A stretch of DNA of 32,642 nucleotides, from positions 1 through 32,642 of the forward strand of contig JALWLO010000129.1 in the NCBI GenBank assembly GCA_027084135.1, written 5' to 3'. Below are positions 4 through 31,360 of this stretch, one piece after another (the stretch's first letter is position 1; every line of letters starts with the position of its first letter). The position numbers and the translations under genes are program-made. The DNA is from Campylobacterales bacterium. Lineage in GTDB: Bacteria > Campylobacterota > Campylobacteria > Campylobacterales > QNZT01. The notes beneath the pieces are model-generated. The model was not told the origin of the DNA. It did not search any database and saw nothing but the letters and a program-made list of their open reading frames with translations.

Positions 4-444
4 ATGAAGGTATATTTAGCAGTACTGGCGATTGTTCTGATTTTGATGCAGCTTATTCGGATCGATATAAAAAATAGTCCAACCGATAGCAGACTTGAGA
101 TCAAAGCTGATGAAAATGTCTCAAAACTTTTGCGCAGAAGCTGTTACGATTGCCACTCAAATAGTACCGATATGCCTTGGTATAGTCATGTAGCTCCTGT
201 TTCATGGTTTGTAAGACACCATATCAAAGAGGGGAGAAAGGCGATTAATTTCTCAAAATATACCCAGATTGACCCAAAGATAAAAGCAAAAAGGCTCAAA
301 CGGGCTATCCAGACCGTACGCAACGGCATGATGCCACTGCCGTCCTATACATGGATGCACAAAGATGCAAAGCTGACAAAAGAGCAAAAAGAGTTACTTG
401 CAAACTTTTTCCAAAAAGAGTTGGACAAGTTGGAGGGGGAGTAG
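4..444 (+). CDS. Haem-binding domain protein (single-haem c-type cytochrome family)
   Basis: Small exported protein of about 146 residues with one c-type haem site, CYDCH at about residues 47-51. The surrounding residues (LRRSCYDCHSN, then PWYS, P.SW and H...G) match the haem-binding domain family PF14376. An N-terminal hydrophobic stretch (about residues 3-18) acts as a signal anchor, so the haem would sit in the periplasm. I chose ATG at 4, because a TTG directly before it (TTGATG) opens the window and the same TTGATG arrangement recurs at several other genes here. The true start could lie upstream of the window. The family is usually annotated as a cytochrome of unknown electron partner; no redox partner is visible nearby. 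It converges with the GAPDH-like gene, with only 7 bp between the two stop codons. Confidence 0.8.
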   Translation: MKVYLAVLAIVLILMQLIRIDIKNSPTDSRLEIKADENVSKLLRRSCYDCHSNSTDMPWYSHVAPVSWFVRHHIKEGRKAINFSKYTQIDPKIKAKRLKRAIQTVRNGMMPLPSYTWMHKDAKLTKEQKELLANFFQKELDKLEGE

Positions 445-451
445 TTTAGTA

Positions 452-1432
452 CTAAACGATATATTTTGCCATCCGTGCTAACTGATAGGCATATCCGTAC
501 TCATTATCTTGCCAGGCAAATATTTGTATCAAGTCTCCCTCTATCACTTTTGTGAGAGCCAAATCTATTGTAGCCCCATAGGGTGAGGCGATGTAGTCGC
601 TGGATACTTTTGGCTTGGTTGTTATATCCAAGATATTGACTTTTTGGGATCCTAGTACCAGTAGTTCCCTCAACTCATCTATATCTACACACTTTTCAAC
701 TCTCATAGTCAAGTCATAAAGAGTGGTTGCCGCAACGGGTACTCTTACACTCTTGGCATAGGTTGCTCCTTTTAAGTTAGGGAAAAAGTGAAGTATCTCA
801 TCGGCGGCGGAGCTTAAAAGGGGTAGTATATTTTGCGTGGCGGATCTTGCCCTTCGTATATCTTTGGAGTAGTGGGGTGAGTCGAGGAGCTTTTGGTAAG
901 CTGAGTAGCTGTGGTACATCACGCTAGATAGCGCCGAGACACCTTTTGCTTTGTTTACGATATCCACTATTGGAGCGATGGCGTTTATGGAGCAGGAGGA
1001 GTTTGAGATGATGGTTTGGTTTTGGTAGTCTATGTGGTTTAGATCCATCACAAATCTCTCTATATCATTTGATGCGGGAGCTGAGATGAGCACCTTTTTG
1101 GCTCCGTTTTTTAAAAATATCTCATTTTGCTCTCTATTTAGAAATATTCCCGTACAGTTGATAAGGAGATCAACTCCCTCAAGAGTTAAATCTTTTGGAT
1201 TGGGGGTGTTGTGGAGCTTGATCGCTTTAGAGTTTAGTACTAAATAGTTCTCTTGCAGTTTTACATCATACTTATACTCACCGTAGATGGAGTCTCTTTG
1301 GAGCAGATCCCTCATCATCTCAAAACTGTATATATCGTTGATCCCGACTATCTCTATCTCATCGGAGTCAAAGAGGATCCTAAACAAAGACCTTCCTATC
1401 CTTCCAAATCCAGTTATGAAAATCTGCTTCAT
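452..1432 (-). CDS. gap: Divergent GAPDH-family dehydrogenase (type I)
   Basis: 326-residue cytoplasmic NAD(P)-dependent aldehyde dehydrogenase of the glyceraldehyde-3-phosphate dehydrogenase family, which makes 1,3-bisphosphoglycerate from glyceraldehyde 3-phosphate. The N-terminal nucleotide fold has GFGRIGR (8-14) and an IND segment (31-33), whose Asp is typical of NAD preference. Catalytic Cys147 lies in SNSSCSIN, where the usual form is SNASCTTN, and His174 lies in HSYSAYQ. The C-terminal signature WQDNEYGYA (307-315) is kept. The altered cysteine loop makes this a diverged family member, so an erythrose-4-phosphate or other phospho-aldehyde dehydrogenase is possible. It is the last gene of the minus-strand operon, overlapping the short-chain dehydrogenase by 4 bp. 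Its TAG stop lies inside a TAGTACTA palindrome. Confidence 0.85.
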   Translation of the reverse strand: MKQIFITGFGRIGRSLFRILFDSDEIEIVGINDIYSFEMMRDLLQRDSIYGEYKYDVKLQENYLVLNSKAIKLHNTPNPKDLTLEGVDLLINCTGIFLNREQNEIFLKNGAKKVLISAPASNDIERFVMDLNHIDYQNQTIISNSSCSINAIAPIVDIVNKAKGVSALSSVMYHSYSAYQKLLDSPHYSKDIRRARSATQNILPLLSSAADEILHFFPNLKGATYAKSVRVPVAATTLYDLTMRVEKCVDIDELRELLVLGSQKVNILDITTKPKVSSDYIASPYGATIDLALTKVIEGDLIQIFAWQDNEYGYAYQLARMAKYIV

Positions 1433-2103
1433 CTATCTCGCTTTAGTGAAAAGATTTGTGGTTCCACGGTTATATCTGTAACGACACTCCCCTCTCTCAT
1501 CTCCAAAATATCAGCCACGATCTGTGCAATATCTTTAGGCTCGATGTAGTTTAGAGGATCATCGGTCGGCTGAAAGCTAAGAGTGTCAAAAAAGGGTGTC
1601 TTTGTGATGTCGGGATTGATATTTACCACCTTTAATCCACTCTTTCTCTGCTCCTTAAATAGCGATAGACCAAAGTGTCTAAGGGCGGATTTTGTAGCAC
1701 CGTAAACCGCACCAAAGGGGGCAGGGGAGATGCCGGAGATGGAGTTAATGTTGATGATACACCCTTTCTGCTCTTTGAGTTTGTCAAGATAAAAGTTGGT
1801 GATCAAAAGCGGTGCGGTTAGATTTACCTCAACCATCTCTCTTATCTTGTTGGCGTTTAACTTCTCATGCTTTCCAAAGTAGCCGACTCCTGCCGAATTT
1901 ACCAAGAGGTCTACTCTTTCAAGCGGTGGCGGTTCAAACGCTTTTGAGAGGTCGATCTCATGGGGGATAAAGTTTTTATCTTCAAATGCTTTAGTACTAA
2001 ATCTAGCTATCCCATGCACTTCATAACCTAGTACTAAGAGCTTATGGGCTATTGCCTCTCCTATACCGCTATTTGCACCTGTGACAACTGCTACTTTTGA
2101 CAT
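1429..2103 (-). CDS. Short-chain dehydrogenase/reductase (SDR)
   Basis: 224-residue classical SDR oxidoreductase, cytoplasmic, substrate unknown. Visible motifs are TGANSGIG (8-15) for the cofactor, NSAG (69-72, usually NNAG), a catalytic Ser in the NINSISG segment (about 121-123), and YGATK (134-138) carrying Tyr134 and Lys138. An arginine just after beta-2 (GIAR, 31-34) hints at NADP(H) preference, which is inference only. It overlaps the upstream nucleosidase-like gene by 13 bp and the downstream GAPDH-like gene by 4 bp, so translation is probably coupled. Two TAGTACTA palindromes (1992, 2029) lie in its first third. SDRs are too diverse to name a reaction. Confidence 0.85.
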   Translation of the reverse strand: MSKVAVVTGANSGIGEAIAHKLLVLGYEVHGIARFSTKAFEDKNFIPHEIDLSKAFEPPPLERVDLLVNSAGVGYFGKHEKLNANKIREMVEVNLTAPLLITNFYLDKLKEQKGCIININSISGISPAPFGAVYGATKSALRHFGLSLFKEQRKSGLKVVNINPDITKTPFFDTLSFQPTDDPLNYIEPKDIAQIVADILEMREGSVVTDITVEPQIFSLKRDR

Positions 2104-2654
2104 ATCATCTCCATGGCTTTAGAGCTAACACTCTCAATAACTTCAACGATCTTATCATGGATACTCTCATCAAACGCCATATTATCCGTAACTGTTTTGA
2201 TGATCTCAATATCTTTGATTTTGAAAAATCTCTTAGCCGATAGGTAAAATCCGCTACTCTCCATATCTACCAAATCGGTTTTTATCTGGGCTTTGTCAGT
2301 CGTTATTTGAGAAATGGTAGTGATCGACAGCCTCCCTTTTTTAGTACTATCTAAGTGATAGACACTATCATTGCAGCGATCAACGATCTTGCCGATAAAA
2401 GCAGTGGTACCGACCTTAGTACTAACCGCTCCGCAGCTTCCAAAGTTTACGATGCTATCTAGCTCTTTGGGAGGATATTTTGTCAAAAGATAGGTTGTTG
2501 CAACGGCAGCGTTTAGAGAGCCTATACCGCTTAGTACTAAACTATATGAGCTATTTTGGTATATCAAAAATGGATCTTTTTCTATAAGCTCTAAATTTAG
2601 AGTATCGATGATAAAGTTGGCTTCAGCTTTTAGTGCAACTACGATATATCTCAT
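2091..2654 (-). CDS. Nucleoside phosphorylase / nucleosidase family protein
   Basis: 187-residue protein resembling the PNP/UDP phosphorylase superfamily that includes MTA/SAH nucleosidase (Mtn/Pfs). Evidence is the N-terminal VVALKAEAN strand, the GSCGAV phosphate or ribose-loop-like segment (about 92-97), and VDMESSGFY (about 148-156), which corresponds to the DMEGAA nucleoside-binding segment. It is shorter than typical Mtn (about 230 residues) and diverged in the middle, so the exact reaction (nucleoside or futalosine-type hydrolysis or phosphorolysis) cannot be assigned. It starts 19 bp after the histidine-kinase stop, shows no clear ribosome-binding site, and overlaps the SDR by 13 bp. 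Three TAGTACTA sites fall in this 564-bp gene. Confidence 0.7.
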   Translation of the reverse strand: MRYIVVALKAEANFIIDTLNLELIEKDPFLIYQNSSYSLVLSGIGSLNAAVATTYLLTKYPPKELDSIVNFGSCGAVSTKVGTTAFIGKIVDRCNDSVYHLDSTKKGRLSITTISQITTDKAQIKTDLVDMESSGFYLSAKRFFKIKDIEIIKTVTDNMAFDESIHDKIVEVIESVSSKAMEMICQK

Positions 2655-2673
2655 AGAGATATTTTATCTACAT

Positions 2674-5600
2674 TTATATATAGTTTTGCAATATCGTATT
2701 GAGATAGGTTTGATCGGCACTGTTGATGAGTACTTCGTCAAACTTGGATCTGATCGCATCATCGATAATAGTGTCAAAACTTCTAAATAGTATCAGTGCC
2801 GTCTTATCTCTTTCCTCTATACTATCGATAAGGACTCTAAGATCTAACCCCTCTATCTCTTTATCCACCATTACCACTCTATATCTATGGTTTCTTAATA
2901 ATTCGAAAAACTCTTCCACATTTTCGGCTGTATCTATTTGGGAGTAACTTTTGCTCAATACCTTCTCAAATATCTTCGTCTCGACTTGGCTCTTTTTAAA
3001 GATCAATATATCTCTAAACGCCTCATACCTCTCGTCGATCACTCTCTCTATATTTGCTTCGACCTCCTCCTCTCTTGTCTCGTCGCTACTTGATCTTTGC
3101 GTCTCGTCGATCGTGATATCGTACTTGAGAAGGATCTCTTTGATCTCGCTCTCTTTTGCCGGTTTACTGATATAGTCATCGAGCCCGTCATTTAAAAATC
3201 TCTCTTTGTCACCCTTTAGCGCATTTGCCGTTACCGCTACAATCGGAGTGTGAGCCAAGCCTTTTGACTTTTCATATTTGATGATCTCCTTCGTTGCCGT
3301 TACCCCATCCATCACAGGCATGGCAATATCCATAAAAATCAGGTCATATTGATGCTCTTTGACCGCTTCTAGCGCCTCTTTTCCGTTATTGACCGTTGTC
3401 GGGTTGAGGGAGAAGTTGGTTATGATCTTTTTCAAAAGTCTTTGATTGATCTCATTATCTTCGGCAATGAGGATATCTTTTTTGATGATTGAACTCTTTT
3501 TCCTCTGGATAGTCGGCTTCTCTTTTTTCAGAGGGGTGATATTGATATGATGATCTTTTGCGATTTGGGTCAATTTTTCGACCAATCGACTGAGATTTAC
3601 AGGTTCACTCATAGGGTAGATGCGCTTTTTCTGATAGGGTGAGAGTCTTGAGTAGTATTTGGTCGGGAAGATGACTATGGAGGGGAGTTTATACTTTTTA
3701 AGAAACTCATACTCCTCTTTCGAGAGAGCCGTAAAGTATGCGATGATCACCTTTGCATCAAACTTTTTCTCCTTTTTTAGCTCACTGAAGCTTACGACTT
3801 TAGCTTTTGCTCCCAAATAGTTAATACATCTGCTTAGAAGTTTACTCTTATAGCTATCTCTACTCTTTACAATGAGTGCGTCAAGGTACTTAAATCTTCC
3901 TCTATGAATCTCTTTAAGAGGGTTTCCTTTTTTGAACTCGAGTGTAAAGAAGAAGTTGCTACCTACACCTTTTTTACTCTTTACCTCGAGTTTTCCACCC
4001 ATTAAAGATACATAGTTGTAGGAGATGGTGAGTCCTAGTCCGGTACCGCCATACTTTCTTGTGATGGTGGAGTCAGCTTGTCTAAATGCGTCAAAGATAT
4101 CGCTCATCTCCTCTTCACTCATGCCGATACCGCTATCGCTCACCTCAAAATAGATCCTCTCTTTTGCATCGCTTTCATTTGAGAGCTTTTTGATAAGTAC
4201 GATGATTTGACCACCCTCTTTGGTAAATTTTACGGCGTTTGAGATTAGATTGAGAAGAACCTCCTTGACCTTTACGACATCACCGATGAGATATCTATCA
4301 AATCCGCAATCCATTAGGAGTGTTAGATTGATATTTTTATCAGCGGCTTTTGGAACATAGACATCTATACTGTTTTCAAACTCTTCAACAGGCGAGAAAG
4401 GCATCTCATCAAGTTCGATTTTATTGCTCTCTATCTTAGATAGATCTAAGATCTTGTTGATGATTTCAAGCAAGTTGTCGGTGCTTTTATCAATGATCTC
4501 AACATACTCTTTAGCCTCTTTATCAAGGTTTCGTTTTTTGAGAAGCTCTGTAAAGCCGACGATACCGTTTATCGGTGTTCTGATCTCGTGAGACATATTT
4601 GCCAAAAAGATACTCTTTGCCGCATTTGCCCTCTCAGCCTTTTTCTTCTCGATAGCGATCTTATCGACACTCTTTTCGATGATAGAGTAGGTTTTATCTA
4701 TCCCCTCGGTAGTTCCAAGGTCAATCGTATCCTCTATCAGTGCATACTCCACGATCTTATCAAGTATCTTCTCAAGACCCTTAGTAGAGTAGAGGTATCT
4801 GTTGAGTTTGCTATATACAAAAAGGGCATAGAGTGAAAATAGGGCAACCAATAGCGCTAATAGCGCTTTGATGAGTGTATAGCTTTTTTCGCTCTCAAGT
4901 GCCTTATGCATCTCAAGCAGAAGAGAGTTTGCGGCTCTGTTTAAGTTTATAATCTTTTTTGTTTCGAGTTTAAACCACTGAACCGGATCGATTTTGACAA
5001 CTCTTGAGCTTAAAAGCTCTTTTTTGATCTCGTTGCTTTTGGTGTTTGCATCGATAAACTCATCTTTATCGATAGCGCTTTTGATAATATTTAGGCTATC
5101 TTTATCGAAAGTTTTAAAGAGGTGCGAGAGCTTTGCATCTTCAAATATTTGAAGTAGTAGAAGATTGTCTCTTTTTACTCTACTACTTAAGATATTGGTT
5201 ACATTGTCTCGTTCATTTGCAACCGCTCTTATTAGATCAAGTATCTTAAGATAGCTATTATATAGTGCATGTAGTTTGAGTGTTGGAAAGTTTTGAGCTC
5301 TCTTCTCTTTGGTTAAAATGGCACTATTGATCTCGTCAAAATAGGCAAAACTCTTTTCATATGGGAGTTGAAATTTATCGATAGAGGCTCTGATTTTGCC
5401 GATTTTCTCTATTTTACTGAGTACTCTATTTGTTATAATGTTTGAGGCACTATTTTGGGTATAATAGGTTTTGGCTGCTTTGATAGCGTTGTCACTTATC
5501 TCTCTTTGAGCCAAGAGCAGTGCTTTACTCTTCTCTTGTCTGCTTAGATTGTATAGCGTGCTCAAACCTCTCTCTCTAGATAGGTTTATAAATAGTGATT

Positions 5601-5748
5601 TTAGTACCTTGCTCTCATCTAGAGAGTGTTGGAAACTTTGGATAACTCTATAGTGGATCAAAGAGCTATAGAGTATATAGAAACTCCCTATTGCCAAGAG
5701 AATAATTGGAATAATCGTCACTACTCTTAGGTTATTTTTTATCTTCAT
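2674..5748 (-). CDS. Hybrid sensor histidine kinase with NIT-like sensor and receiver domains
   Basis: 1024-residue membrane-bound hybrid kinase. A transmembrane helix (about 10-30) precedes a helical periplasmic sensor (about 40-290) that carries RERGLST (58-64) and a second NERDN element (178-182). This resembles the nitrate/nitrite-sensing NIT domain (PF08376). A second helix spans about 291-313. The transmitter has HisKA with His387 in NMSHEIRTP, Asn504 of the N box, DSGIGM (538-543) and GGTGLGL (567-573). A degenerate receiver-like region (about 621-735) follows, then a canonical receiver (758-875) with phospho-acceptor Asp807 and Lys862. The C-terminus (about 910-1024) looks like a further degenerate receiver with Asp962. 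No DNA-binding output domain is encoded beside it. It heads the operon with the nucleosidase-like, SDR and GAPDH-like genes. Confidence 0.9.
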
Positions 5749-5866
5749 TTAGCTTATCAACTCCATTCGTTATAAAGTTGCAACTCCTTCATTTGTTGGA
5801 AATAATTTCACTAGTACTAGGTTAATCATCTTTTTTGAAGCAGTGCATAAACTCTTTATGGTGATG

Positions 5867-5875
5867 ATTATAGCA
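5867..5875 (-). promoter_or_regulatory. Extended -10 promoter for the histidine-kinase operon
   Basis: On the minus strand the sequence reads TGCTATAAT, a perfect extended -10 element, about 120 bp before the kinase ATG. It would give a leader of roughly 110 nt. Campylobacterota sigma-70 promoters typically rely on the -10 box with a weak -35, which fits. Seen in sequence; activity is inferred. Confidence 0.5.
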
Positions 5876-5897
5876 TTTAAGCCTAAAAGATTAATAG

Positions 5898-6067: not shown

Positions 6068-6172
6068 AGATTTTGCAGGAAGAGGTGAAGATATCCCCTT
6101 TAAAGAAAATATTCTTAATAAAATATTTCGAAAAGTAAATATATTGTCTATTATCCTCCGATATATCTTTTA

Positions 6173-7707: not shown

Positions 7708-9507
7708 TTATTTAATATTTTTAATCTTTAATGCGATATTGGCACCGACGACTCGTTTAAGCTCCTCATAGGAAGCCTTTTGGATATTGCTAAAAGTCTC
7801 AAAATATTGCAAAAGTTTCTTGATTGATCCTTCACCAACACCTTTTGTTTTGAGAAGAGAGATCTTTTGATCTCTCCTTAGCTTCACCTTTTTGTGGTAA
7901 TTTATCACAAATCTGTGAGCCTCATCTCTAATATTTTGTAAAAAGTGTAGCCTCTCATCGCTACTTGATAACCTAAGTGCACCATCTTTTGTATAGATGA
8001 TATCTCTTGCCTTTCCTTTTGAGCGATTTGCTTTGTGATCAATCTTCTCTTTTGCAACTGCAACTATATCGACATTCGCACCTTTTTCTTTAACTATTTG
8101 AATAGCAAGTTTTAAAAGGGTCTCACCGCCGTCTATGACCATCAGATCCGGTGGCGGATTTGTTGAAAACTTCTCCACTCTTCTGCTAAGAAGCTCTCTC
8201 ATCTGAGCATACTCATCTTTAGCCTCTAAATTGTAGTGTTTATACTCCTTTTTGATAAATGTTCCATCCCACTTGATCACCGCGCCGACTGTTGCTTCAC
8301 CACCTAAGTGTGAATTGTCGTACCCCTCTATCACATAAGGCGTTTTTGATAGGTTGAGTAGCTTTTGGAGCTTTGTTAAAATCTCATCCGAACCTTTTTT
8401 CTCTTTTTTGATCAACTCTTTGGCATTTTGATACGCAAGTTCGGTGAGTCTCCTCTTTTGACCGATTTTCGGAACGGTTAGATTGACCTTTCTCTTAAAC
8501 TTCTTCTCCAAAAATCTTTCGATACTCTCCATATCTTCAAACGCTTCATAGAGTAAGATATCCTTTAGTACTACCAGTTCATTTTGATAGTATGAGAGCA
8601 AAAATCTACGATAGAGTTCTGCTTTGTCAAAACCGCTTTGAGATTTGAAAACGGAGTGAGTACTGGAGACAACACGCCCGTCTCTGATAAAGATTCTGAT
8701 TCCGCAAGCCTCTTTTTCACCGATATAGATCGCAAAAATATCATAATCCTCCAGTTTCGCTAAATCGATGTTGGAAACAGCGCTACTGCTCTTTATCTTC
8801 TCTATAGCATCTCTGATTCTCGCGGCATCTTCAAAGCGTAAAGTTGAGGCATACTCCTCCATCTTCTCTTGCAGTTTTGCCAGCAGACTCTTTTTGTTGT
8901 ATAGAAGCTCCATCGCCTCATCTACAAGCTCTTTATACACCTCTTTACTCACTTTACCCTCGCAAGGCCCTAGGCATCTCTTGATCTGATAAAAGAGACA
9001 TAGGGACTTTTTTTTGATATCTCCCTCTCTTTGTACTAAAGGAAATAGCTCATAGATGGAGTCTAGTATCTCTCTAGCGGCGGTAGAGAAGGGACCAAAG
9101 TATCTTATCTTTTTCCCCTTTACCACTTTCCTCGTGATTTTGAAACGGGGAAAATCTTCTGATAGATCGATATAGATATAGGGATAGGTTTTATCGTCTC
9201 TAAGAAGAATGTTATATTTTGGGTTTAACTGTTTGATGAGTGAGTTTTCAAGTATGAGAGCATCATGCTCACTATCGACGACGATATATGAGAGAGAGGC
9301 GGTTTCTAAGAGCATTTTGTGGATTCTAGGTGAAAGATTTGGTGCGGGTGAAAGCTTAGGTGTATAGCGAAAATAGCTTTTTACCCGTTTTTTGAGAGAT
9401 TTTGCTTTTCCTACATAAAGTAGCTTTCCGTCACGATCGAAGTATTGATATACTCCTGGACTATCGGGAAGCTTTTTGATACGCTCTTGGAGGCTATTTT
9501 GATCCAT
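7708..9507 (-). CDS. uvrC: Excinuclease ABC subunit C
   Basis: 599-residue UvrC, the nuclease that makes both incisions around a UvrB-bound lesion in nucleotide excision repair. The GIY-YIG nuclease domain is at the N-terminus (SPGVYQYF at about 17-24, LLYVGKAKSLKKRV at about 29-42). A UVR motif that contacts UvrB lies near residues 212-232 (ASTLRFEDAARIRDAI). The RNase H-like second nuclease domain includes GYDNSHLGGE and MVIDGG, and the C-terminus has tandem helix-hairpin-helix motifs (KTKGVGEGSIKKLL, then VVGANIALKIK). Length is normal. It overlaps the upstream DUF721-like gene by 14 bp and is followed after 14 bp by the PAS-protein gene. One TAGTACTA site lies at 8566. Confidence 0.97.
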   Translation of the reverse strand: MDQNSLQERIKKLPDSPGVYQYFDRDGKLLYVGKAKSLKKRVKSYFRYTPKLSPAPNLSPRIHKMLLETASLSYIVVDSEHDALILENSLIKQLNPKYNILLRDDKTYPYIYIDLSEDFPRFKITRKVVKGKKIRYFGPFSTAAREILDSIYELFPLVQREGDIKKKSLCLFYQIKRCLGPCEGKVSKEVYKELVDEAMELLYNKKSLLAKLQEKMEEYASTLRFEDAARIRDAIEKIKSSSAVSNIDLAKLEDYDIFAIYIGEKEACGIRIFIRDGRVVSSTHSVFKSQSGFDKAELYRRFLLSYYQNELVVLKDILLYEAFEDMESIERFLEKKFKRKVNLTVPKIGQKRRLTELAYQNAKELIKKEKKGSDEILTKLQKLLNLSKTPYVIEGYDNSHLGGEATVGAVIKWDGTFIKKEYKHYNLEAKDEYAQMRELLSRRVEKFSTNPPPDLMVIDGGETLLKLAIQIVKEKGANVDIVAVAKEKIDHKANRSKGKARDIIYTKDGALRLSSSDERLHFLQNIRDEAHRFVINYHKKVKLRRDQKISLLKTKGVGEGSIKKLLQYFETFSNIQKASYEELKRVVGANIALKIKNIK

Positions 9508-12991: not shown

Positions 12992-13024
12992 TACAATCCC
13001 CAAAAATTAGTACTAATGCAAGGA
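12992..13024 (+). promoter_or_regulatory. guaA promoter and leader with a palindrome
   Basis: TACAAT (12992-12997) is a plausible -10 box, giving a transcript start near 13004. The 12-bp palindrome ATTAGTACTAAT (13006-13017) then lies at the very start of the transcript, followed by the ribosome-binding site AAGGA (13020-13024) and guaA ATG at 13030. The palindrome belongs to the TAGTACTA set seen throughout the window. It could be an operator or simply another copy of the repeated word. Confidence 0.5.
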
Positions 13025-14565: not shown

Positions 14566-14569
14566 ATTG

Positions 14570-15475
14570 ATGAAGCGTTTTATAAAGTTAGTACTAACAA
14601 TGGGGCTCTTTTTCGCTTCAACACAGGGCTTTTCAAATCAGGATGACATTGAAAAAATATATCAGTCGCTAAAACCTCAATATGAGTCTATGAGTAAGCT
14701 GAAAGAGGTAGCAAAAAAGGGAAAAACGATCAACTACATATCCGCCGCTTTGGCGCTAGTAATTTTTTTACTATTTGCGAAATTTTTTAAACTTTACGGT
14801 GTGATTGTCGCCCTTATGATGATAGCCGCCGGCTACTATGTCATAAATCGTGCAAACAGTGCACCCAAAACATATGAAACGCTCTTTAAGCAGAAGATCA
14901 TCTCCCCCTTAAGTGGAGGATATCGATATACCCCCGATGCGATCACACTGCAAGATATCAAAAACTCAAAGATCTTTTTGCCGACAATCAAAAACTATAC
15001 GATTGTCGATACCTATCGAAAGAGAAATATCAGTTTAGCGTATGTCGTTGCGATATTTTATACGAAAGAGAATGCATCGGTAGAGCGATTTAACGAAAAT
15101 AAGTTTAACGGAATATTTATCAAGTTAGAGAAGCCGACAAAAAGTAACGGCGTTGTGATAAGTGACGCTTTTAGAGAGAAGGTTGCCGATATGGATATCG
15201 AATTTTCAACCTTTTTTGCTGATGCGAAGCGAGTAGGGAAGCGAGAAGGTTTTGATATTTACGGTGAGATACGCGATGAAGAGTTTGACAAAATTGTAAA
15301 ACTTAGCGATAAAAGCGTAGCGATCTCTTTTACAAATGATGCGATCTATATCCTTCTTTATCGTATTGAAGACCCCTTAAAGGTGGATATTTTTAGGGAG
15401 TTCAATCGACAAGTTACACAAGAGTATGCTGAATTTTTCAAAATGGTTGACGAGGTTGTAGAGCTATTTGAGTGA
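14570..15475 (+). CDS. DUF3137-like membrane protein
   Basis: About 301 residues. A signal-like N-terminus (KRFIKLVLTMGLFFASTQGFS) and a short helical region precede two transmembrane helices (about 56-92, AALALVIFLLFAKFF and VIVALMMIAAGYYVI). The C-terminal soluble domain contains NGIFIKLEKP and FFADAKRVGKREGF, resembling the DUF3137 family of unknown function. I chose ATG at 14570 over the TTG 3 bp before it. It sits 4 bp after guaA and its end overlaps hemD by 8 bp. The palindrome GTTAGTACTAAC lies at 14587-14598, inside the signal-sequence codons. Function unknown. Confidence 0.7.
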   Translation: MKRFIKLVLTMGLFFASTQGFSNQDDIEKIYQSLKPQYESMSKLKEVAKKGKTINYISAALALVIFLLFAKFFKLYGVIVALMMIAAGYYVINRANSAPKTYETLFKQKIISPLSGGYRYTPDAITLQDIKNSKIFLPTIKNYTIVDTYRKRNISLAYVVAIFYTKENASVERFNENKFNGIFIKLEKPTKSNGVVISDAFREKVADMDIEFSTFFADAKRVGKREGFDIYGEIRDEEFDKIVKLSDKSVAISFTNDAIYILLYRIEDPLKVDIFREFNRQVTQEYAEFFKMVDEVVELFE

Positions 15476-16115
15476 TATCATAGTACTCAATGATCGAATC
15501 TATGAAGGGGCTATCAATCTTCCCGTTATAACATTTAAATTTTATGATAAAAGTGTTACGTGTGATAGTTACGAAGCACTTGTTTTTACTTCGATCAACG
15601 GTGTAAAAGCGCTCAATAGGATCTCAAACAGTTGGCTTGATATACCCTCTTACGCTATCGGTGAAGCAACCTATCACTACTTGAAAAAAGTGGGTGCAAA
15701 TGTTGTATATCGTGCAAAAAGCTCTTACGGGGATCACTTCGCAAAAGAGATCAAAGATCTATTAGAGGGTAAAAGGGTGCTCTTTTGCAGACCTTCCAAA
15801 GTCACTTCAAATCTCAACAACATTTTAAAAGCTAACGGGGTACTTTTGGATGAAATCATACTCTATGAGACGATCTGTGTCAACAACACGAAGACTCCAC
15901 AGCCGAAATCCGGTTCAACCATTATATTCTCATCACCCTCTACGATAGAGTGCTTTTTTAAATATTTTAGTTGGGATAAGAGCTACAATGCCCTAGTACT
16001 AGGTACGAAAACCGCCTCTTTTATGCCGCCTCATGTTCGATATGAAATCTCTCCGCAACCCAATATAGAGGTAGCGATAAAATTTGCCAGAGATTTAAGT
16101 AAGAAAGGGTTATAA
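15468..16115 (+). CDS. hemD: Uroporphyrinogen-III synthase
   Basis: 215-residue cytoplasmic enzyme that closes and inverts ring D of hydroxymethylbilane to give uroporphyrinogen III, the branch point for haem and sirohaem. Family features are YEALVFTSINGVKAL (about 33-47), YAIGEATYHYLKKVG (about 61-75) and the second-domain segment GSTIIFSSPSTIECF. HemD is always poorly conserved, and these match the expected positions in two alternating Rossmann-like domains. The start is TTG at 15468, overlapping the preceding gene by 8 bp; no ATG is available. Its stop codon overlaps the -10 box of the 6S RNA. A 12-bp palindrome, CCTAGTACTAGG, lies at 15992. Confidence 0.88.
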   Translation: MSDIIVLNDRIYEGAINLPVITFKFYDKSVTCDSYEALVFTSINGVKALNRISNSWLDIPSYAIGEATYHYLKKVGANVVYRAKSSYGDHFAKEIKDLLEGKRVLFCRPSKVTSNLNNILKANGVLLDEIILYETICVNNTKTPQPKSGSTIIFSSPSTIECFFKYFSWDKSYNALVLGTKTASFMPPHVRYEISPQPNIEVAIKFARDLSKKGL

Positions 16116-22529: not shown

Positions 22530-24645
22530 CCAAGTTGAGATAGAGTTAAATAATAAGTGTGAAATCTATGAGATAGATAAAGTTGCAAAGCAGGCTAACG
22601 GCGCCGTGCTATTGAGAGAGAAAGATGCCGTAGTACTAGCGACGGTAGTCTTTGAAGATAAGCCGGTAGAAGAGGACTTTATGCCTCTTACCGTTCAATA
22701 TGTAGAAAAAGCGTATGCTGTATCGAAAATCCCTGGCGGTTTTATCAAGAGGGAGAGCAGACCGAGTGATTTTGAGACACTGACCTCTAGAATCATAGAT
22801 AGAAGTATAAGACCTCTCTTTCCAAAAGGGTTTAACTATCCGACTCAGATAACGGTTATGGTACTTAGCGGGGATTATAGCGTTGATCTCCAAACGATGG
22901 CTACAAATGCGGCTTCAGCCGCACTATATCTCTCAGATCTTCCGATAGAGAGGGCTGTTGCTTCAGTTCGAGTTGCAAAAATTGACGGTGAATATGTGAT
23001 AAATCCCGATCTTGAAAAATTAGAAGAGAGTACGCTTGATATGCTTGTGAGTGGAAGCGGTAAAGATCTCTTGATGATAGAGATGATGGTCAAAGGTGAT
23101 GAAGAGAGTGATGAGATGAATGAGCTAAGCAGTGATGAGACTGTTGAAGCGCTCTCATTAGCCTCCGAGGCTATAGAGAGTGCGAGCAAGGCTTATGAGA
23201 GTAGGTTCTCTCCCTATAAAAAAGAGGTGGTAGAACTGGAGTTTGCTGTCGTTCAAGAATCCGATGAGATATATAACTACATCAAAGATATCTATAAAGA
23301 GGAAGTATATGACGCTATCAATCGCATGGCAAAGAGTGAGAGAGCCGGAGAGCTTAAAAAGATAGCGCATAAGATTGCCCTGACGCATGATGAGTGGTCT
23401 GTAGAGGAGATTGAACCGGTAGTTGATAAATATAAGCGAGAGATTGTGCGGGAGATGATACTCAAGGAGAGAAAAAGAGCCGATGGAAGAGGGTTGAAAG
23501 ACATCAGAGATATCTCTATAGAGACAAACCTCCTTCCATCTGTTCACAGCTCCGCACTCTTTACGAGAGGTCAAACACAAGTATTGGTAGCTTTAACTCT
23601 GGGTGGCGCAAAAGATGCACAATCATACGATACCCTGATGCATAGAGAGACGCAGTATGAAAACTTTATGGTTCACTATAACTTCCCCGGATTTTCAGTC
23701 GGAGAGGCTTCTCCCCTAAAAGCACCTGCAAGAAGAGAGCTTGGACACGGCAATCTAGCTAAAAGAGCGCTGCAATCCTCTATCAGTCTATCAAAGGGTG
23801 AGACGGTTCGGCTTGTTGCTGAAGTTTTGGAATCAAACGGTTCATCATCGATGGCTACCGTTTGCGGCGGCTCTCTTGCGCTTAAGGCGGCAAATCTCAA
23901 TGTAAAAAAGCTTGTTGCGGGTGTGGCTATGGGACTTGTGGTTGAAGGTAGCGAATATGCTATTTTGACTGATATTATGGGTCTTGAGGATCATGACGGA
24001 GATATGGATTTCAAAGTAGCCGGAACGAGAGACGGGATAACCGCTTTGCAGATGGATATAAAGCTGGGAGGCATCGATAAGCAGATACTCCAAGAGGCGC
24101 TATATCAAGCGGATGAGGCGAGAAATTATATACTAGATTTGATGGAGGAAGCCGCAAGTATGATAGAGTTAAATAGTGCACTTCCCTCTAAGTCTATCTT
24201 TACGATTGACCCTTCAACCTTTGGAGCGATTATTGGACAAGCCGGTAAAAATATTAAAGAGATGATAGAGAAGTTTGATGTAACGATCGACTTGGATAGA
24301 GATAGCGGTGAAGTGAAAATTGAGGGTAGAAGTGAAAATGTTGAAGCGGCAACCGCTCACATAAAGCAGGTCTCAAAAGATGAGAGTGAGAGAAGAGGGG
24401 AGAAAAAAGTAGCTCCAACTTTTAAAGAGGGGCAGGTTTTTGACGGTAAAGTTGAGAGGATAGCTGATTTTGGCGCTTTTGTCTCTTTACCAGGAGGCGT
24501 TGACGGACTTTTGCACATCTCAAAACTTTCAGATGAGAGAGTTGATGATGTTAGAGATGTGCTAAGTGAGGGAGATATGGTAAAAGTCAAGATTCTTTCT
24601 CAAAAGGGAAATAAGGTAGAGTTGGCACTTGTTGAGAAACTTTAA
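22522..24645 (+). CDS. pnp: Polynucleotide phosphorylase
   Basis: 707-residue trimeric 3'-5' exoribonuclease that phosphorolyses RNA to nucleoside diphosphates, central to mRNA turnover and part of degradosomes. It has two RNase PH domains. The first begins near residue 10; the second (about 318-540) includes FTRGQTQVL, the phosphate-binding SNGSSSMATVCGGSL and the catalytic DHDGDMDFKVAG segment. A KH domain (about 553-615, AIIGQAGKNIKEM) and an S1 domain (about 634-705, DFGAFVSLPGGVDGLLHISKL) follow. Length is normal. The preceding ribosome-binding site is AAGGAGAG. It ends the long plus-strand run, and no hairpin terminator follows before the atpE promoter. Confidence 0.97.
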   Translation: MSSQVEIELNNKCEIYEIDKVAKQANGAVLLREKDAVVLATVVFEDKPVEEDFMPLTVQYVEKAYAVSKIPGGFIKRESRPSDFETLTSRIIDRSIRPLFPKGFNYPTQITVMVLSGDYSVDLQTMATNAASAALYLSDLPIERAVASVRVAKIDGEYVINPDLEKLEESTLDMLVSGSGKDLLMIEMMVKGDEESDEMNELSSDETVEALSLASEAIESASKAYESRFSPYKKEVVELEFAVVQESDEIYNYIKDIYKEEVYDAINRMAKSERAGELKKIAHKIALTHDEWSVEEIEPVVDKYKREIVREMILKERKRADGRGLKDIRDISIETNLLPSVHSSALFTRGQTQVLVALTLGGAKDAQSYDTLMHRETQYENFMVHYNFPGFSVGEASPLKAPARRELGHGNLAKRALQSSISLSKGETVRLVAEVLESNGSSSMATVCGGSLALKAANLNVKKLVAGVAMGLVVEGSEYAILTDIMGLEDHDGDMDFKVAGTRDGITALQMDIKLGGIDKQILQEALYQADEARNYILDLMEEAASMIELNSALPSKSIFTIDPSTFGAIIGQAGKNIKEMIEKFDVTIDLDRDSGEVKIEGRSENVEAATAHIKQVSKDESERRGEKKVAPTFKEGQVFDGKVERIADFGAFVSLPGGVDGLLHISKLSDERVDDVRDVLSEGDMVKVKILSQKGNKVELALVEKL

Positions 24646-25278: not shown

Positions 25279-25284
25279 CATTTT

Positions 25285-27489
25285 ATGGAAAATATCCAAG
25301 AGGTTTTAAAGTCTCACAAACTCACCAATTTAGATTATGAGCATATAAAAAAGATACTCAAAAGAGAGCCGAATCTATTAGAGATAGGTATATTTAGCGC
25401 TATGTGGAGTGAGCACTGCTCCTATAAGTCGAGCAAAAAGTATCTAAGAGGGTTTCCTACCGAAGCTCCTTGGGTGATACAGGGTCCAGGAGAGAATGCC
25501 GGGGTGATCGATATCGGTGATGGATTGGCAGCAGTATTTAAGATGGAGAGTCATAACCATCCAAGCTTTATAGAGCCCTATCAAGGTGCCGCAACGGGAG
25601 TAGGTGGGATACTTAGAGATGTTTTTACCATGGGTGCTAGACCGGTAGCAAACCTCAATGCCTTGAGATTTGGTGAGATCACCAAAGATGATGATATAAG
25701 CCGTCATCAGAGATATTTAGTACGAGGAGTGGTAGCCGGAATCGGGGATTACGGTAACTGTATGGGTGTACCGACTATCGGCGGTGAGACATTTTTTGAC
25801 GCTTCCTATAATGGAAATATCTTGGTAAATGCCTTTACACTCGGCATCGCAAAGCGTGATGAGATATTTTACGGTAGAGCCGAGGGTGTAGGAAATCCGG
25901 TGATCTATGTAGGTAGTAAAACCGGACGAGACGGTCTAGGTGGAGCGGTGATGAGTAGTGATAGCTTCAACGAAGAGAGCAAATCACTTAGACCTACCGT
26001 TCAAGTGGGTGACCCGTTTACCGAGAAGCTTTTGCTAGAGGCGTGTTTGGAGCTATTTAAGCATGATTATATTGTCGGTATCCAAGATATGGGTGCGGCG
26101 GGACTCACTTCAAGTAGCTTTGAGATGGCTGGAAGAAGCGGTTCTGGAATGATCATGCATCTTGATAAGGTTCCTGCAAGAGAAGAGGGGATGACCCCTT
26201 ATGAATTTATGTTAAGCGAGTCCCAAGAGAGGATGCTTATTTGTGCTAAAAAAGGGTTTGAAGATAAGGTAGTTGAGATATTCCACAAGTGGGATTTGGA
26301 TGCGGAGATCATCGGAGAGGTGACTGATAGCGGTGAGATGGAGCTCTTTTGGCATGGTGAGAAGGTAGCTCAGATACCGATAGAGCCGATAACGGAAGAG
26401 GCACCCGTTCTTGATAGACCTATAGAAAAACCAAAATATCTTGAGAGCGTAAATAAAAAGAGTGTCGATGATTTTGAGAGGATAGATAATGGGGTAGCTT
26501 TTGATAAGCTCTTTTCATCGATGGAGGTGGTCGATAAGGCGTGGATCTATGAGCAGTATGACTCAATGGTACAGACAAATACCGTCAAAGCTCCTGGCTC
26601 ACTCGATGCCAGTGTGATACGCATAAAAGAGAGTGGTAAGGCGATAGCGATAAGTAGCGACTGTAATCCAAGGTATTGTTATATCGATCCAAAGTTGGGT
26701 GCGGCGGCTGCGGTGATGGAGAGCGGTAGAAATGTAGCGATGAGTGGAGCGAGACCACTTGCTATAACCGATTGCTTAAACTATGGAAATCCTGAAAATC
26801 CTGAGATCATGTGGCAGTTTGCGATGGGCTGTGAAGGTATCAAAGAGGCGTGTAGAGCCTTAAACACCCCTGTAGTTAGCGGGAATGTCTCTCTCTATAA
26901 TGAGACCGAGGGTGAGTCGGTATTTCCTACTCCATCTATCGCTATGGTTGGAGTCAATGAGGATGCCAATAAAACTTTACCTTCATATTTTCAAAAGAGC
27001 GGGAGTAGTATCTATCTGCTAGGGGAGATAGGAAGCGATTTTGGTGGAAGTCTCTATATAAAAGCGCTTTTTGATGAAGTTGTCGGCAAGATGGCTGATA
27101 TTGATTTTCAAAAAGAGCTTAAACTTTGGGATTTTGTTATCGAAGCAAACAGAAAAGATCTACTACTAAGCTCTAAAGATATCAATGTCGGCGGTTTGGC
27201 TATCGCACTTGCTAAGATGTCGGTGAAGTCCGGTATCGGAGTAGAGGCGAAGATAGCGTTAAACGATAGCAGGGATATTTTTAGCGAAACTCCAAGCTGT
27301 GCCATAGTAGAAGTAGAGGATAGTGAGAGTTTTGAGAAGTTTGCTAAAGAGTTTGGCATAAAAGTTACAAAACTAGGTAGTACTAACTCTTGTACTAAGT
27401 TTATCTGTAATGATGTTGAGAGAGATTTAGGTCAACTAAAAGATGTCTATTTTGGTGAGTTTGTCAGAGTAGTGGAGAGGGATATCTAG
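25285..27489 (+). CDS. purL: Phosphoribosylformylglycinamidine synthase subunit PurL
   Basis: 734-residue large subunit of the small-PurL type, which makes FGAM from FGAR using ATP and ammonia delivered by PurQ, with PurS as bridge. Motifs are [10 protein letters not shown] (41-50) with catalytic His44, MESHNHPS (87-94), [20 protein letters not shown], and the duplicated AIRS-type halves, the second starting near [10 protein letters not shown]. The open frame extends upstream into tRNA-Leu, but ATG 25285 has the ribosome-binding site and the family's usual N-terminus. PurQ and PurS are not in the window. The TAG stop lies in a TAGTACTA palindrome (27487-27494), and another copy lies at 27378. 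Confidence 0.97.
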
Positions 27490-27517
27490 TACTAACCAAA
27501 GGGTACCTCTCAAATCT

Positions 27518-27552
27518 ATATGGGCACCTAGGGTTATTAGAGGTGCCCATAT
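27518..27552. repeat. Perfect 12-bp inverted repeat, 11-nt loop
   Basis: ATATGGGCACCT (27518-27529) and AGGTGCCCATAT (27541-27552) pair perfectly around AGGGTTATTAG. No T-run follows, so it is not a standard intrinsic terminator. The word GGGTTATTAGAGGTGCCC looks, from memory, like the end of some IS5-type elements, so a terminal remnant is possible. Confidence 0.7.
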
Positions 27553-27557
27553 GAATC

Positions 27558-27588
27558 AGGAGTAAAATAAGTTCAAAATTTTGCTCCT
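27558..27588 (+). terminator. Second hairpin after purL, possible terminator
   Basis: AGGAGTAAAAT (27558-27568) pairs with ATTTTGCTCCT (27578-27588) apart from one G-U, with a 9-nt loop. A run of T residues lies only 12 nt further on (27601-27610), so termination is possible but not canonical. Confidence 0.45.
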
Positions 27589-27760
27589 AGATGATAAAGA
27601 TTTTTTTTTCAATCTACAAGCTCTATCTGATGATCGAGATGACTACTAGAGGAATAAACAAAAGTATATCTTAATAGTTTAACTAATATTAATATTTAAG
27701 CTAGTTTTATATAAAAAAAGATAAAAATAAGTTTACTAATTTAGAGATAAAAGAGCCGAA

Positions 27761-28972
27761 GTGACTTTCACGAACAAGAGTATTACTTACAAAGAGCAAA
27801 CTTTTAGAATAGTGCTTTTTATATTGTTTACGGTTGCGATTGCTTCAATGGGTATATATGCCAACGATACAACTATTGTAATATCCAATCTAATTGTAGT
27901 GATTTTTTTGGGATTTTTCTTTTTTTACCAGCTGCTTTATGATGTGAAAAGTTACCATATCAACTTAGTTTGGGTCTCCTATGCCCTCTTTTTTATCTTT
28001 TCGATCGCTTCTATTTTTTGGACGATAGAGCCTCAAAACACTCTCTTTACTCTAAAGAGAATTTTTATGATATTGGTGATTGGGTTGGTAATATACAATA
28101 TCTTGAAAATATATCAAATGTATGACGCACTTTATATCGGGATGATGATCGGTGGATTTTACAATTTCTATCTTGCGCTCACCTCTCTTGGAGAGTATCA
28201 TGCTGGTGAGCGTTTTTCAGGTGCTTTTGAGTTGCCGACTGCACTTGGAACTTATATGATGCTGGCAATAATGGCTGCTGTACTATTTCTACAAAAAAGA
28301 AGAGTCTTTTGGCTTAGATGGGTTAGTTATCTATTTATCGCCACATCGTTTTTTGTGATTGTGCTTAGTATCTCAAGGGCATCGATGGTTTTATCATTTG
28401 TGGTGATTCTTCTCTTTTTCTACCAATCTATCAAAGATAAAAAGGTGAGGAGAGATATCTATATTTTGCTCTTTCTCATTGCCGTGGGTCTTATCTACTT
28501 TGTAGATTTTAAAGATATTGTTGAGTACTACAATAAAATTGTAGATAGGGTACTAGGATTGATAGGGGCTACCGGTTCAGGATACAGAGATGATAGTACG
28601 ACTGAAAGGATGAGACTTGCTAAACTGGCTTTTGAAGTATATGCTAGTCATCCCTTTTTGGGTACCGGCTTGGATAGTTTGCGTGGACACTTGATAGCGG
28701 ATCTGCATTCACATAATACATTCTTAGAGCTATTAGGTGGTGTCGGACCTCTTGGAATGATTTTATACTTTTTGCTCTACTACTATTTGATCAAAAAGAT
28801 CATTGCGATGCCACATTCATGGTTAAGAACTTACCTGCTTCTTTTTACGATATTGTTGCTTATTAGAAATCTTACGGGTATTACTTATAACAATAAGCTC
28901 TATATCTTTTATGCTTTTCTTTTTAGTGCACTTGCAGAGGATAGCACAAAGAAAATAGTGGTAAAACAATAG
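27761..28972 (+). CDS. O-antigen ligase / Wzy-type polymerase family membrane protein
   Basis: 403-residue inner-membrane protein with about ten to twelve hydrophobic helices and one large periplasmic loop. The loop region carries FLGTGLDSLRGH and then the family signature DLHSHNTFLELLGGVGPLGM, in line with the PF04932 O-antigen ligase/polymerase fold. Members either ligate O-antigen to lipid A-core (WaaL) or polymerise repeat units (Wzy). The Wzz/BY-kinase gene next door favours a polymerase for an exported polysaccharide. The start is GTG at 27761 with a weak AAGAG upstream; no earlier ATG is available. 78 bp separate it from the next gene. Confidence 0.85.
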   Translation: MTFTNKSITYKEQTFRIVLFILFTVAIASMGIYANDTTIVISNLIVVIFLGFFFFYQLLYDVKSYHINLVWVSYALFFIFSIASIFWTIEPQNTLFTLKRIFMILVIGLVIYNILKIYQMYDALYIGMMIGGFYNFYLALTSLGEYHAGERFSGAFELPTALGTYMMLAIMAAVLFLQKRRVFWLRWVSYLFIATSFFVIVLSISRASMVLSFVVILLFFYQSIKDKKVRRDIYILLFLIAVGLIYFVDFKDIVEYYNKIVDRVLGLIGATGSGYRDDSTTERMRLAKLAFEVYASHPFLGTGLDSLRGHLIADLHSHNTFLELLGGVGPLGMILYFLLYYYLIKKIIAMPHSWLRTYLLLFTILLLIRNLTGITYNNKLYIFYAFLFSALAEDSTKKIVVKQ

Positions 28973-28983
28973 TTACAAAGTAA

Positions 28984-28989
28984 TATAAT
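28984..28989 (+). promoter_or_regulatory. Possible -10 box before the Wzz/BY-kinase gene
   Basis: TATAAT lies in a very AT-rich 78-bp gap (28973-29050), 61 bp before the TTG start. AGGAG (29041-29045) then provides a strong ribosome-binding site. In so AT-rich a region the match has limited weight. Confidence 0.35.
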
Positions 28990-29050
28990 ATTTAATATAT
29001 TATTAAGGTTAAATTTCATAGTATAGTTGTAGTTTTTTTAAGGAGCCGTT

Positions 29051-31360
29051 TTGGAACTAAAATATGAGGGCAATAATGTTGATTTGGGAAAGTTTTTTAA
29101 AACCTTTAAAAAATATAAGTTGCTCAACCTTTTGATTATTCTCTCATTTATATTATTGGGTCTTTTATACTATCTGCTATCGACCAAAAAATATGAGACA
29201 TACTTTACGGTTCAGATCAAAGATATACCGGCTGAACTAAGAAGAGATCTTTTTGGAAATATGGTAAGTACCGCATCGACTGCGGATATAGAGAGTGAAA
29301 AAGATATCGTCCAATCAGATTTTATACTGGCTAAATCTCTCCTAAGTGTGGGTAAAGAGGTTAGATACTTTAATGAAGATGGTTTGAAAAAATTTGAGTT
29401 TTATAAAAATGCACCCTTTACGATAGAAAATTTGAGAGTGAAAAATAGAAAAATTTACGGCAAAAAGATAGAGATCGATGATTTAGGGGAGAGATTTAGG
29501 CTCCATATCAAATCCTCAATCATAGGTAAATTACTAAAAAGGGAAAAGTTAGAGGATTTTAGCAAGATTTACAGATATGGTGAGCCGGTTAGTACTAAAG
29601 ATGTTGAGTTTATAGTACAGAAAAGAAGAAACTTTAAAGGTGAAAAAGATAGTTTTATCTTATCCTCTATTGAAGCACTTGTGAAAGATTCGAAAAAAAA
29701 TTTGAAGGTAACAACCGCCTCTAAAGATTCACAAGTCTTAAAGGTTATCTATCAAGATAATATCGCAAGAAGAGCGAAAGATTTCTTAGATGCGATGCTT
29801 CACAACTATCTGAACTTTAGTACAAAAGTGGAGTCAAAAGAGAAATTGAAACAGCTTAGTTTTGTGGACAATAAGCTGGGAGATATACAAAAAGAGCTTG
29901 AGAGATCTGAAGAGAACCTAGCAAGATTTAAATCATCACACAATATTAGTGATATCGCTACCCAAAAAGAGGAGTTGGTCAGAAGAATAGGTGAATTAAA
30001 AAACCAACTCATTGAACTTGAAGGGGCTTATGAGAGTATCCATAGGATCAATAGAGAGATTAACAAGGGAAACTATTCAATCATCAGTGCTCTAGGTGGT
30101 GATTATCCGGTACTAAATACTTTGATAGAAAATATCGAGGAGCTAAAAACCAGAAGAGATGAGCTTTTGGCAAACTATACGACAAAGCATCCTGAGGTAG
30201 TAAGTATCACAAGAAGTATAAGCAATATAAAACGATCAATAAAAAGTGTTGCAAAAGGTATAGAGTCTACTGTACTACATAGAAAAAATATTACTCAAAG
30301 CTCTCTAAACGAGGCGCAACAAAAATTAAAAGAGATGCCTATCTTAGATAAAGATTTAGTGAGACATAGAAGAGTTTTTGAGGTGAAAAACAATATCTAC
30401 AACTATCTACTTGAGAAGAAGTCTGAACTCTCTATTGAAAATGCGGCACTCTCAACCAATAAGGTTGTACTTGATTACCCAAGATTAAAACATGAGGCAG
30501 CTAATTTTAAATTACCGTTTGTGTTACTATTCTCTACACTCTTAGGTATGATCGCAGCATTTTTACATACTGTCTTTAGAGTGAGAACGCAAAAAGAGGT
30601 AGAAAATGAAAATGATATTAGAGTGTTAAGTTCACTGCCGATATTAAGTACGCTTCCCTATGTATCTGCAACGCAAGAGTCACTTAATCTCATTAGAAAT
30701 CCAAATTCAGCACTTAGTGAAGCATTTAGGGTTTTGCGTGAGAAGTTAAATTACATCAAAATAGCCAATGAATCCAAAGTTGTTTTGATAAGCTCGATAG
30801 ATCGCTATGCAGGAAAAAGTGTGATTGCGGCAGGATTAGCTTCTGCGATAGGTATGAGCGGTAAAAAATGTGTCGTTTTATCTATGGATTTTCGAAATCC
30901 TACACTCCATAAAAAGTTTGGTCTACCAAATAAGAGGGGTGTGAGTGAACTTTTACTAAAAGATGCTCCTTTAGAAACCGTGCTCTGGGTACATAATAAA
31001 TATAAAAACTTAAATATCATCACTTCAGGTACGAAACCGCTCTATCCTGCTGAAGTGGTTGCATCTCATAAGGTCGAAGAGATCATTGAAGCGTTGAGAA
31101 AAGAGTTTGAGTATATTATTATCGACACTCCTCCTGTCGCACTCTATGCCGATACATTGAGTCTCTTTAAGTATGCAGATATATCACTCTTTGTGGTTCG
31201 ATCTTCTCTATCACAAAAGGAGTCTATCGCTGCATTAGAAGATATGGTCAAAGAGCTTAGGATCGAAAATAGTTATATCATTTTAAATGCCAAGGCAGAG
31301 CAGTTAAATCATACAAAAAAGAGCTTATCATTTAACAGAACAAATCTTCTAAGGGCATAA
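29051..31360 (+). CDS. Wzz-type chain-length protein fused to BY-kinase (polysaccharide co-polymerase)
   Basis: 769-residue inner-membrane protein. A cytoplasmic N-terminus, first helix (about 25-43), a large periplasmic region with coiled coils (about 265-425) and a second helix (about 487-508) form the Wzz/PCP part. This controls polymer length and export. The cytoplasmic ATPase has the oligomerisation motif E557xxR560xxR563, Walker A ending GKS (588-590), Walker A' VLSMD (609-613) and Walker B IIIDTPP (689-695). The C-terminus has no tyrosine cluster, unlike Wzc or CapB. The start is TTG with AGGAG 5 nt upstream. It follows the ligase/polymerase gene and converges with lnt. Confidence 0.9.
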   Translation: MELKYEGNNVDLGKFFKTFKKYKLLNLLIILSFILLGLLYYLLSTKKYETYFTVQIKDIPAELRRDLFGNMVSTASTADIESEKDIVQSDFILAKSLLSVGKEVRYFNEDGLKKFEFYKNAPFTIENLRVKNRKIYGKKIEIDDLGERFRLHIKSSIIGKLLKREKLEDFSKIYRYGEPVSTKDVEFIVQKRRNFKGEKDSFILSSIEALVKDSKKNLKVTTASKDSQVLKVIYQDNIARRAKDFLDAMLHNYLNFSTKVESKEKLKQLSFVDNKLGDIQKELERSEENLARFKSSHNISDIATQKEELVRRIGELKNQLIELEGAYESIHRINREINKGNYSIISALGGDYPVLNTLIENIEELKTRRDELLANYTTKHPEVVSITRSISNIKRSIKSVAKGIESTVLHRKNITQSSLNEAQQKLKEMPILDKDLVRHRRVFEVKNNIYNYLLEKKSELSIENAALSTNKVVLDYPRLKHEAANFKLPFVLLFSTLLGMIAAFLHTVFRVRTQKEVENENDIRVLSSLPILSTLPYVSATQESLNLIRNPNSALSEAFRVLREKLNYIKIANESKVVLISSIDRYAGKSVIAAGLASAIGMSGKKCVVLSMDFRNPTLHKKFGLPNKRGVSELLLKDAPLETVLWVHNKYKNLNIITSGTKPLYPAEVVASHKVEEIIEALRKEFEYIIIDTPPVALYADTLSLFKYADISLFVVRSSLSQKESIAALEDMVKELRIENSYIILNAKAEQLNHTKKSLSFNRTNLLRA

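Follow-up and report, generated by a model that had tools for sequence, protein, structure and literature searches.

The DNA stretch analyzed here (the window) comprises the 32,642 nucleotides of contig JALWLO010000129.1 from an uncultured member of the Campylobacterales (assembly GCA_027084135.1), in which a preliminary description had noticed the over-represented palindromic octamer TAGTACTA and likened it to the highly iterated palindrome HIP1. The genome as a whole bears out this comparison, as it carries 1,214 copies of TAGTACTA in coding and non-coding DNA, making it by far the strongest palindromic octamer. Whereas a genome-wide word had thus been foreseen, it had not been foreseen that related species carry other words in place of TAGTACTA, each with an invariant GTAC or CATG core and species-specific flanks. 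The force behind the word acts on the DNA letters themselves, overriding the choice of codons and, wherever the protein allows it, of amino acids. The string TAGTACTA occurs in 214 papers, and among the 20 matches listed none gives an account of it as a repeated word, as judged by titles and abstracts.

Abundance and form of the word

The source genome (G000) amounts to 1.98 Mb in 144 contigs and is 92% complete with 0.04% contamination. Pattern counts cover the whole genome, while the remaining statistics refer to 792 kb of it (40%), with open reading frames (ORFs) called by a simple longest-frame rule. The 1,214 copies of TAGTACTA correspond to 0.61 per kb and are evenly spread, compared to 78 copies of the mirrored control ATCATGAT. 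The 792 kb contain 507 copies (0.64 per kb), and no contig piece of 7 kb or more within the first 515 kb lacks the word, the densities ranging from 0.29 to 0.98 copies per kb. These counts rule out an enrichment confined to the window, the outcome that had been named in advance as speaking against a genome-wide motif. In the Markov comparison that had been proposed, TAGTACTA ranked second of 31,721 octamers at order 4, surpassed only by its own one-base shift AGTACTAA; at order 2, 3.75 copies were expected in 185 kb and 120 observed.

The word is embedded in short, graded flanks. The preceding base is T (0.66) or C (0.19) and the following base A or G, and beyond about 6 bp the flanks are near random. 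From these preferences we derive the full consensus yTTAGTACTAAr; TTAGTACTAA occurs 139 times in 515 kb as compared to 0.6 expected copies. Among one-mismatch variants, most changes at the outer two positions are found at two to four times expectation, while changes of the GTAC core stay mostly at or below it. Near-misses that fall mainly at outer positions are characteristic of highly iterated palindromes as a class, and TAGTACTA shares this property. Apart from the word, GTAC occurs near expectation. As a separate observation in the 515-kb sample, the tetramers ACGT (39 copies vs 574 expected) and GGCC (73 vs 788) are strongly avoided, as both are in the same-genus relative G002 (ACGT: 2 vs 551 expected); the ACGT avoidance suggests restriction against this site in the genus.

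In the window, we counted exactly the 16 copies of TAGTACTA that had been reported, and 23 of the AGTACT core, given earlier as about 24. One hundred dinucleotide shuffles yield 0.63 copies of the octamer (standard deviation 0.85, largest 4). The copies run from 447 to 29597, so that the first begins at 447 rather than at 444 as previously given. They are found in ORFs of both strands and between genes, and the extension of several into longer palindromes was likewise confirmed: six of the 16 reach at least 12 bp (one of 14 bp at 447 and five of 12 bp), four are palindromic to 10 bp and six only to 8 bp. The copies are listed without strand.

Copy 1, 447..454: within the 14 bp palindrome GTTTAGTACTAAAC, where two convergent genes meet
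Copy 2, 1235..1242: 12 bp palindrome in a GAPDH-like gene (Leu-Val-Leu)
Copy 3, 1992..1999: 12 bp palindrome in a short-chain dehydrogenase gene (Ser-Thr)
Copy 4, 2029..2036: short-chain dehydrogenase gene (Leu-Val-Leu)
Copy 5, 2342..2349: phosphorylase-superfamily gene (Ser-Thr)
Copy 6, 2417..2424: TTAGTACTAA, phosphorylase-superfamily gene
Copy 7, 2532..2539: TTAGTACTAA, phosphorylase-superfamily gene
Copy 8, 5812..5819: CTAGTACTAG, intergenic
Copy 9, 8566..8573: uvrC (Val-Val-Leu)
Copy 10, 13008..13015: 12 bp palindrome between nhaD and guaA
Copy 11, 14589..14596: 12 bp palindrome in ORF 14567-15475 (Leu-Val-Leu)
Copy 12, 15994..16001: 12 bp palindrome CCTAGTACTAGG in a hemD-like gene
Copy 13, 22631..22638: pnp (polynucleotide phosphorylase)
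Copy 14, 27378..27385: 3' part of purL (Ser-Thr)
Copy 15, 27487..27494: overlaps the purL stop codon
Copy 16, 29590..29597: TTAGTACTAA, Wzc-like tyrosine kinase gene (Ser-Thr)

The word overrides codon choice and protein sequence

The density of TAGTACTA is 0.58 per kb within ORFs and 1.22 outside, with marked differences between spacers that separate convergent (2.2 per kb), co-directional (1.15) and divergent (0.65) genes. Copies are spaced almost at random, close pairs being slightly more common than expected. Within ORFs, both stop-free reading frames are used (233 and 185 copies), the third being one that would create an in-frame TAG. Codon usage does not yield these copies: 416 were seen in coding sequence, 16-fold more than the 25 ± 4 that remained after synonymous codons had been shuffled within genes. 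The imprint extends to the proteome, where the tripeptides STK and LVL are inflated two- to threefold relative to G002. The observed-to-expected ratio of STK is 2.58 in the source genome and 0.97 in G002, and that of LVL 1.85 and 0.67, respectively. At 47 sites that could be aligned with G002 orthologues, two to seven of the eight bases differ, and the codons of the site show 49% amino-acid identity compared to 61% for the proteins. Moreover, Ser-Thr pairs encoded by the word are less conserved than other Ser-Thr pairs (0.27 vs 0.49, p=0.03), while for Val-Leu sites the difference from non-word pairs was not significant (p=0.21). Taken together, the excess over shuffled genes, the inflated tripeptides and the low conservation of the sites point to a pressure on the DNA word, which settles where the protein tolerates it.

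Words and methyltransferases of related genomes

The comparison covered 400 genomes of the order and relied almost entirely on metagenome-assembled or draft genomes. Of the same-genus relatives, G002 is 99% and G001 57% complete. Apart from the source genome and G002 (391 kb), samples were small (5-52 kb), and the consensus words of relatives are thus provisional, except those backed by whole-genome counts. No other genome of the 400 holds more than 126 copies of TAGTACTA, so that a single species carries the word; even the same-genus species have only 26 (G002) and 8 (G001). In 391 kb of G002, no word of comparable strength was found. The word of G001 is TGGTACCA, with 331 copies in 0.9 Mb and at most 71 in 299 other genomes (whole-genome counts). 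In the metagenome-assembled genome Kmv14 (JACUTV010000030.1) it is TTACATGTAA, whose octamer occurs nine times in 13.9 kb (about 0.2 expected), at all nine sites within the full 10-mer and often as CyTTACATGTAArG. G004, G008 and G057 share TATCATGATA. The mirrored control ATCATGAT proved to be a word in its own right, counted 1,902 and 1,311 times in two genomes from another genus of the family, 685 times in G057, which belongs to another family, and no more than 262 times elsewhere. While the words of the source genome, G001, Kmv14 and G004 are palindromic, only those of G003, G007 and G009 are asymmetric. In G003 the consensus is TTATCATGTAg, a palindromic CATG core with unequal flanks, and TATCATGTA has 11 copies in 13.4 kb (L151, C169), which take either orientation and occupy more than one reading frame. 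Weaker candidates are CTTCATGA/TTCATGAA in G009 and TCATGACA/TATCATGA in G007. Together, these words resemble dialects that vary around one of two cores, GTAC or CATG.

Some candidates did not hold. AGATGCA (G006/G013) is largely confined to one reading frame and was therefore rejected as a codon effect, and the purL words of the source genome (copy 14) and Kmv14 lie 8 residues apart, at different sites, rather than in orthologous placement. In genus g47 of family f13 (G102, G114, G176 and others), AGTACT is strongly avoided, with 6-11 copies in about 1.6 Mb, compared to about 290 of TCATGA. TCATGA is unusually common in G040 (family f19; 1,524 copies) and in G226 and G330 (both f16; 1,364 and 1,658), which may harbor further words.

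Both cores are methylated in Helicobacter pylori, GTAC by the gamma-class enzymes M.Hpy99XII/M.HpyAXII and CATG by the alpha-class enzyme HpyIM/M.HpyAI (hp1208) (PMC3936762). CATG words are associated with a D12 (alpha) methyltransferase of the HpyIM type: a close D12 enzyme is present in all sampled genomes with a CATG word (G003, G004, G007, G008, G009 and G057). A phage homologue of this enzyme is annotated as 'ulcer associated adenine specific DNA methyltransferase', which is the name of HpyIM. Within the family, the median TCATGA count is 873 per Mb with the D12 enzyme and 328 without it (p=0.0045, not corrected for relatedness), and all six genomes above 800 per Mb carry the enzyme. Across the 400 genomes, 179 have a D12 homologue and very few an over-represented word, setting most of the D12-carrying genomes apart from the word carriers; conversely, G040 and G226 are TCATGA-rich yet devoid of a D12 homologue. 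The D12 enzyme was absent from searches of the source genome and of G001, the latter being only 57% complete.

A GTAC methyltransferase was not found in the 92% complete source genome with four Pfam families (PF01555, PF02086, PF07669 and PF02384); as the genomes are incomplete and C5, MT-A70 and other families were left out of the search, this does not show its absence. PF01555 matched two proteins: one is paired with a TdeIII-type endonuclease, the other is a Type III-like Mod. The former, an SPPY-motif methyltransferase, forms a complete TdeIII-type pair with the PF09520 endonuclease behind it (C19; L070:1501-3842), a locus without TAGTACTA inside. We rejected it as the GTAC enzyme, given that it adjoins this endonuclease and that its close homologues, in about 18 other genomes, none with the word, do not track TAGTACTA. 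For the same reason, a TdeIII-type restriction-modification system does not qualify as the source of the word. Such a palindrome is not expected for the Type III-like Mod (C105) or for a Type I HsdM (C39) either, and the PF07669 matches were PrmC- or TrmN6-like housekeeping enzymes besides HsdM. The hsdM gene (L182:11859-14254) is followed by a RhuM-like ORF, with an integrase-like ORF nearby, and these genes contain no word copies. Searching the Protein Data Bank (PDB) with the methyltransferases brought no useful match.

Candidate functions of the word

The preliminary description had listed several functions for the motif (methylation or anti-restriction site, nucleoid or segregation protein site, repair or recombination signal, uptake word) without choosing among them. 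The choice is narrowed by a word that is species-specific, varies in dialects and overrides protein sequence. We tentatively favour the idea that TAGTACTA serves as a self-DNA recognition word for natural transformation, possibly gated by methylation of its core, an account that falls somewhat below an even chance in our estimation. With the word in the source genome alone and other words on the same or a similar core in relatives, TAGTACTA probably marks the cell's own DNA. The DNA-binding part of the uptake machinery would prefer fragments with the local dialect, words arising by mutation would be favoured at each round of uptake and recombination, and they would accumulate wherever the gene product tolerates them. 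In lineages with CATG words, the probable role of the HpyIM-type enzyme is to methylate the core, much as CtsM marks acceptable DNA in Campylobacter jejuni; for the source genome, a corresponding GTAC-core enzyme is predicted, which the four-family search did not recover.

This proposal builds on known uptake systems. Neisseriaceae have eight uptake-sequence dialects with graded flanks around a strict CTG core common to all (PMC3630211), and it is the change between sister species, the invariant core and the override of amino acids, as produced by biased uptake and recombination in that family, that lead us to prefer a self-DNA word. The DNA uptake sequences (DUS) of Neisseriaceae (PMC3630211) and the uptake signal sequences (USS) of Pasteurellaceae (PMC1939737) resemble the words described here in having hundreds to thousands of copies, a 9-12 bp consensus, species dialects with an invariant short core and graded flanks, and a higher frequency outside genes; the copy number of TAGTACTA lies within the order known for uptake words (PMC3630211). 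Further support comes from its twofold higher density outside ORFs, with a peak at convergent gene ends and a minimum between divergent genes. Also in favour, the source genome has a row of three prepilin-like ORFs next to a hydrogenase cluster (C80; L034:451-2075), possibly encoding uptake pseudopilins. In the same order, C. jejuni takes up only DNA with a CtsM-methylated motif (PMC8468864), so that a short methylated motif governs DNA entry, albeit one that is short, degenerate and frequent, whereas the TAGTACTA form is a highly over-represented 10-mer. A CtsM equivalent for GTAC was not identified in this analysis.

Several points weigh against a role in uptake. The foremost is palindromicity, since DUS and USS are non-palindromic (PMC1939737); they also differ in that uptake function and receptor have been shown for them. 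No competence receptor was identified in the source genome, and DprA and ComEC were not found by crude motif scans of 40% of it, which is not evidence of absence. The near-random spacing with its excess of near pairs is unlike the even spacing reported for USS, and the cyanobacterial HIP1 class has many of the same features without a proven uptake role.

The main rival is a ratchet of the kind Elhai modelled for cyanobacteria, in which the core is methylated and methylation-directed repair or conversion drives neighbouring bases toward the palindrome, with no uptake role; we consider it unlikely, but a serious contender. HIP1 and its alternates (PMC4390886) occur at about 1 per kb, accompanied by a core methyltransferase and with near-misses deviating at outer positions, a tolerance pattern also seen in TAGTACTA. 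The words described here resemble them as octamer palindromes at about 0.6-1 per kb in genic and intergenic DNA, with strict inner and tolerant outer positions and other words in sporadic relatives; the CATG-cored words here also accompany the close D12 enzyme, a matching methyltransferase type. HIP1 and its alternates differ in belonging to another phylum, while the present words have A+T-rich flanks and GTAC/CATG cores, vary among species of one genus, include asymmetric versions and visibly shift proteome tripeptides; nor is TAGTACTA HIP1 proper, which is GCGATCGC in a cyanobacterium. The chief difficulty of the ratchet is the GTAC enzyme, which the four-family search did not find. In addition, a methyltransferase is insufficient, given the many D12 genomes with no word, and G040 is TCATGA-rich without one. 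Nor does a symmetric 4-bp methylation site by itself readily explain the asymmetric flanks of G003, G007 and G009.

We regard as distinctly less probable a binding site, about one per 1.6 kb, of a protein that organises, segregates or recombines the chromosome. A dimeric binding protein would suit 10-12 bp palindromes whose outer positions are graded, and the even density across contigs also speaks for this reading; however, a global binding protein would have to evolve quickly to account for the rapid species-specific change of the word and for its lack in G002, Chi- and KOPS-type signals are oriented whereas this palindrome is not, and the low density in divergent (promoter) spacers speaks against regulation. 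Over-representation as a by-product of restriction-modification or regulatory methylation is more improbable still. Several modification systems do exist in the source genome, but restriction sites are normally avoided, as ACGT and GGCC are here, whereas TAGTACTA is enriched 30-fold; besides, GTAC apart from the word is near expectation, and the SPPY-motif methyltransferase is part of the TdeIII-type system. The tests run refute an origin of the word by chance, from codon usage or base composition, through a repeated element or as an artefact of assembly: dinucleotide shuffles, synonymous-codon shuffles and the order 4 Markov expectation all fail to yield it, its flanks are near random beyond about 6 bp, it is present in all contig pieces from 7 kb upwards, and contamination is low.

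The question of what HIP1-type palindromes do dates, to our knowledge, from 1995 and has stayed open since, and detailed knowledge of uptake words comes from just two bacterial families. The genomes described here offer a natural series, in which sister species of one genus carry words that differ around a shared core, one sister carries no word, and among the nearest relatives the core itself gives way to a second one, which matches a known methyltransferase specificity. Such a series makes the origin, spread and reader of these words testable by comparison, and it demonstrates that the make-up of a proteome can be measurably altered by a short word in the DNA. It is conceivable, if somewhat doubtful, that uptake words arose independently in a lineage other than Neisseriaceae and Pasteurellaceae, as fast-changing dialects around a methylated palindromic core. 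If true, the uptake-dialect reading would unify HIP1-like palindromes, the methylation-gated uptake of C. jejuni and the DUS/USS dialects.

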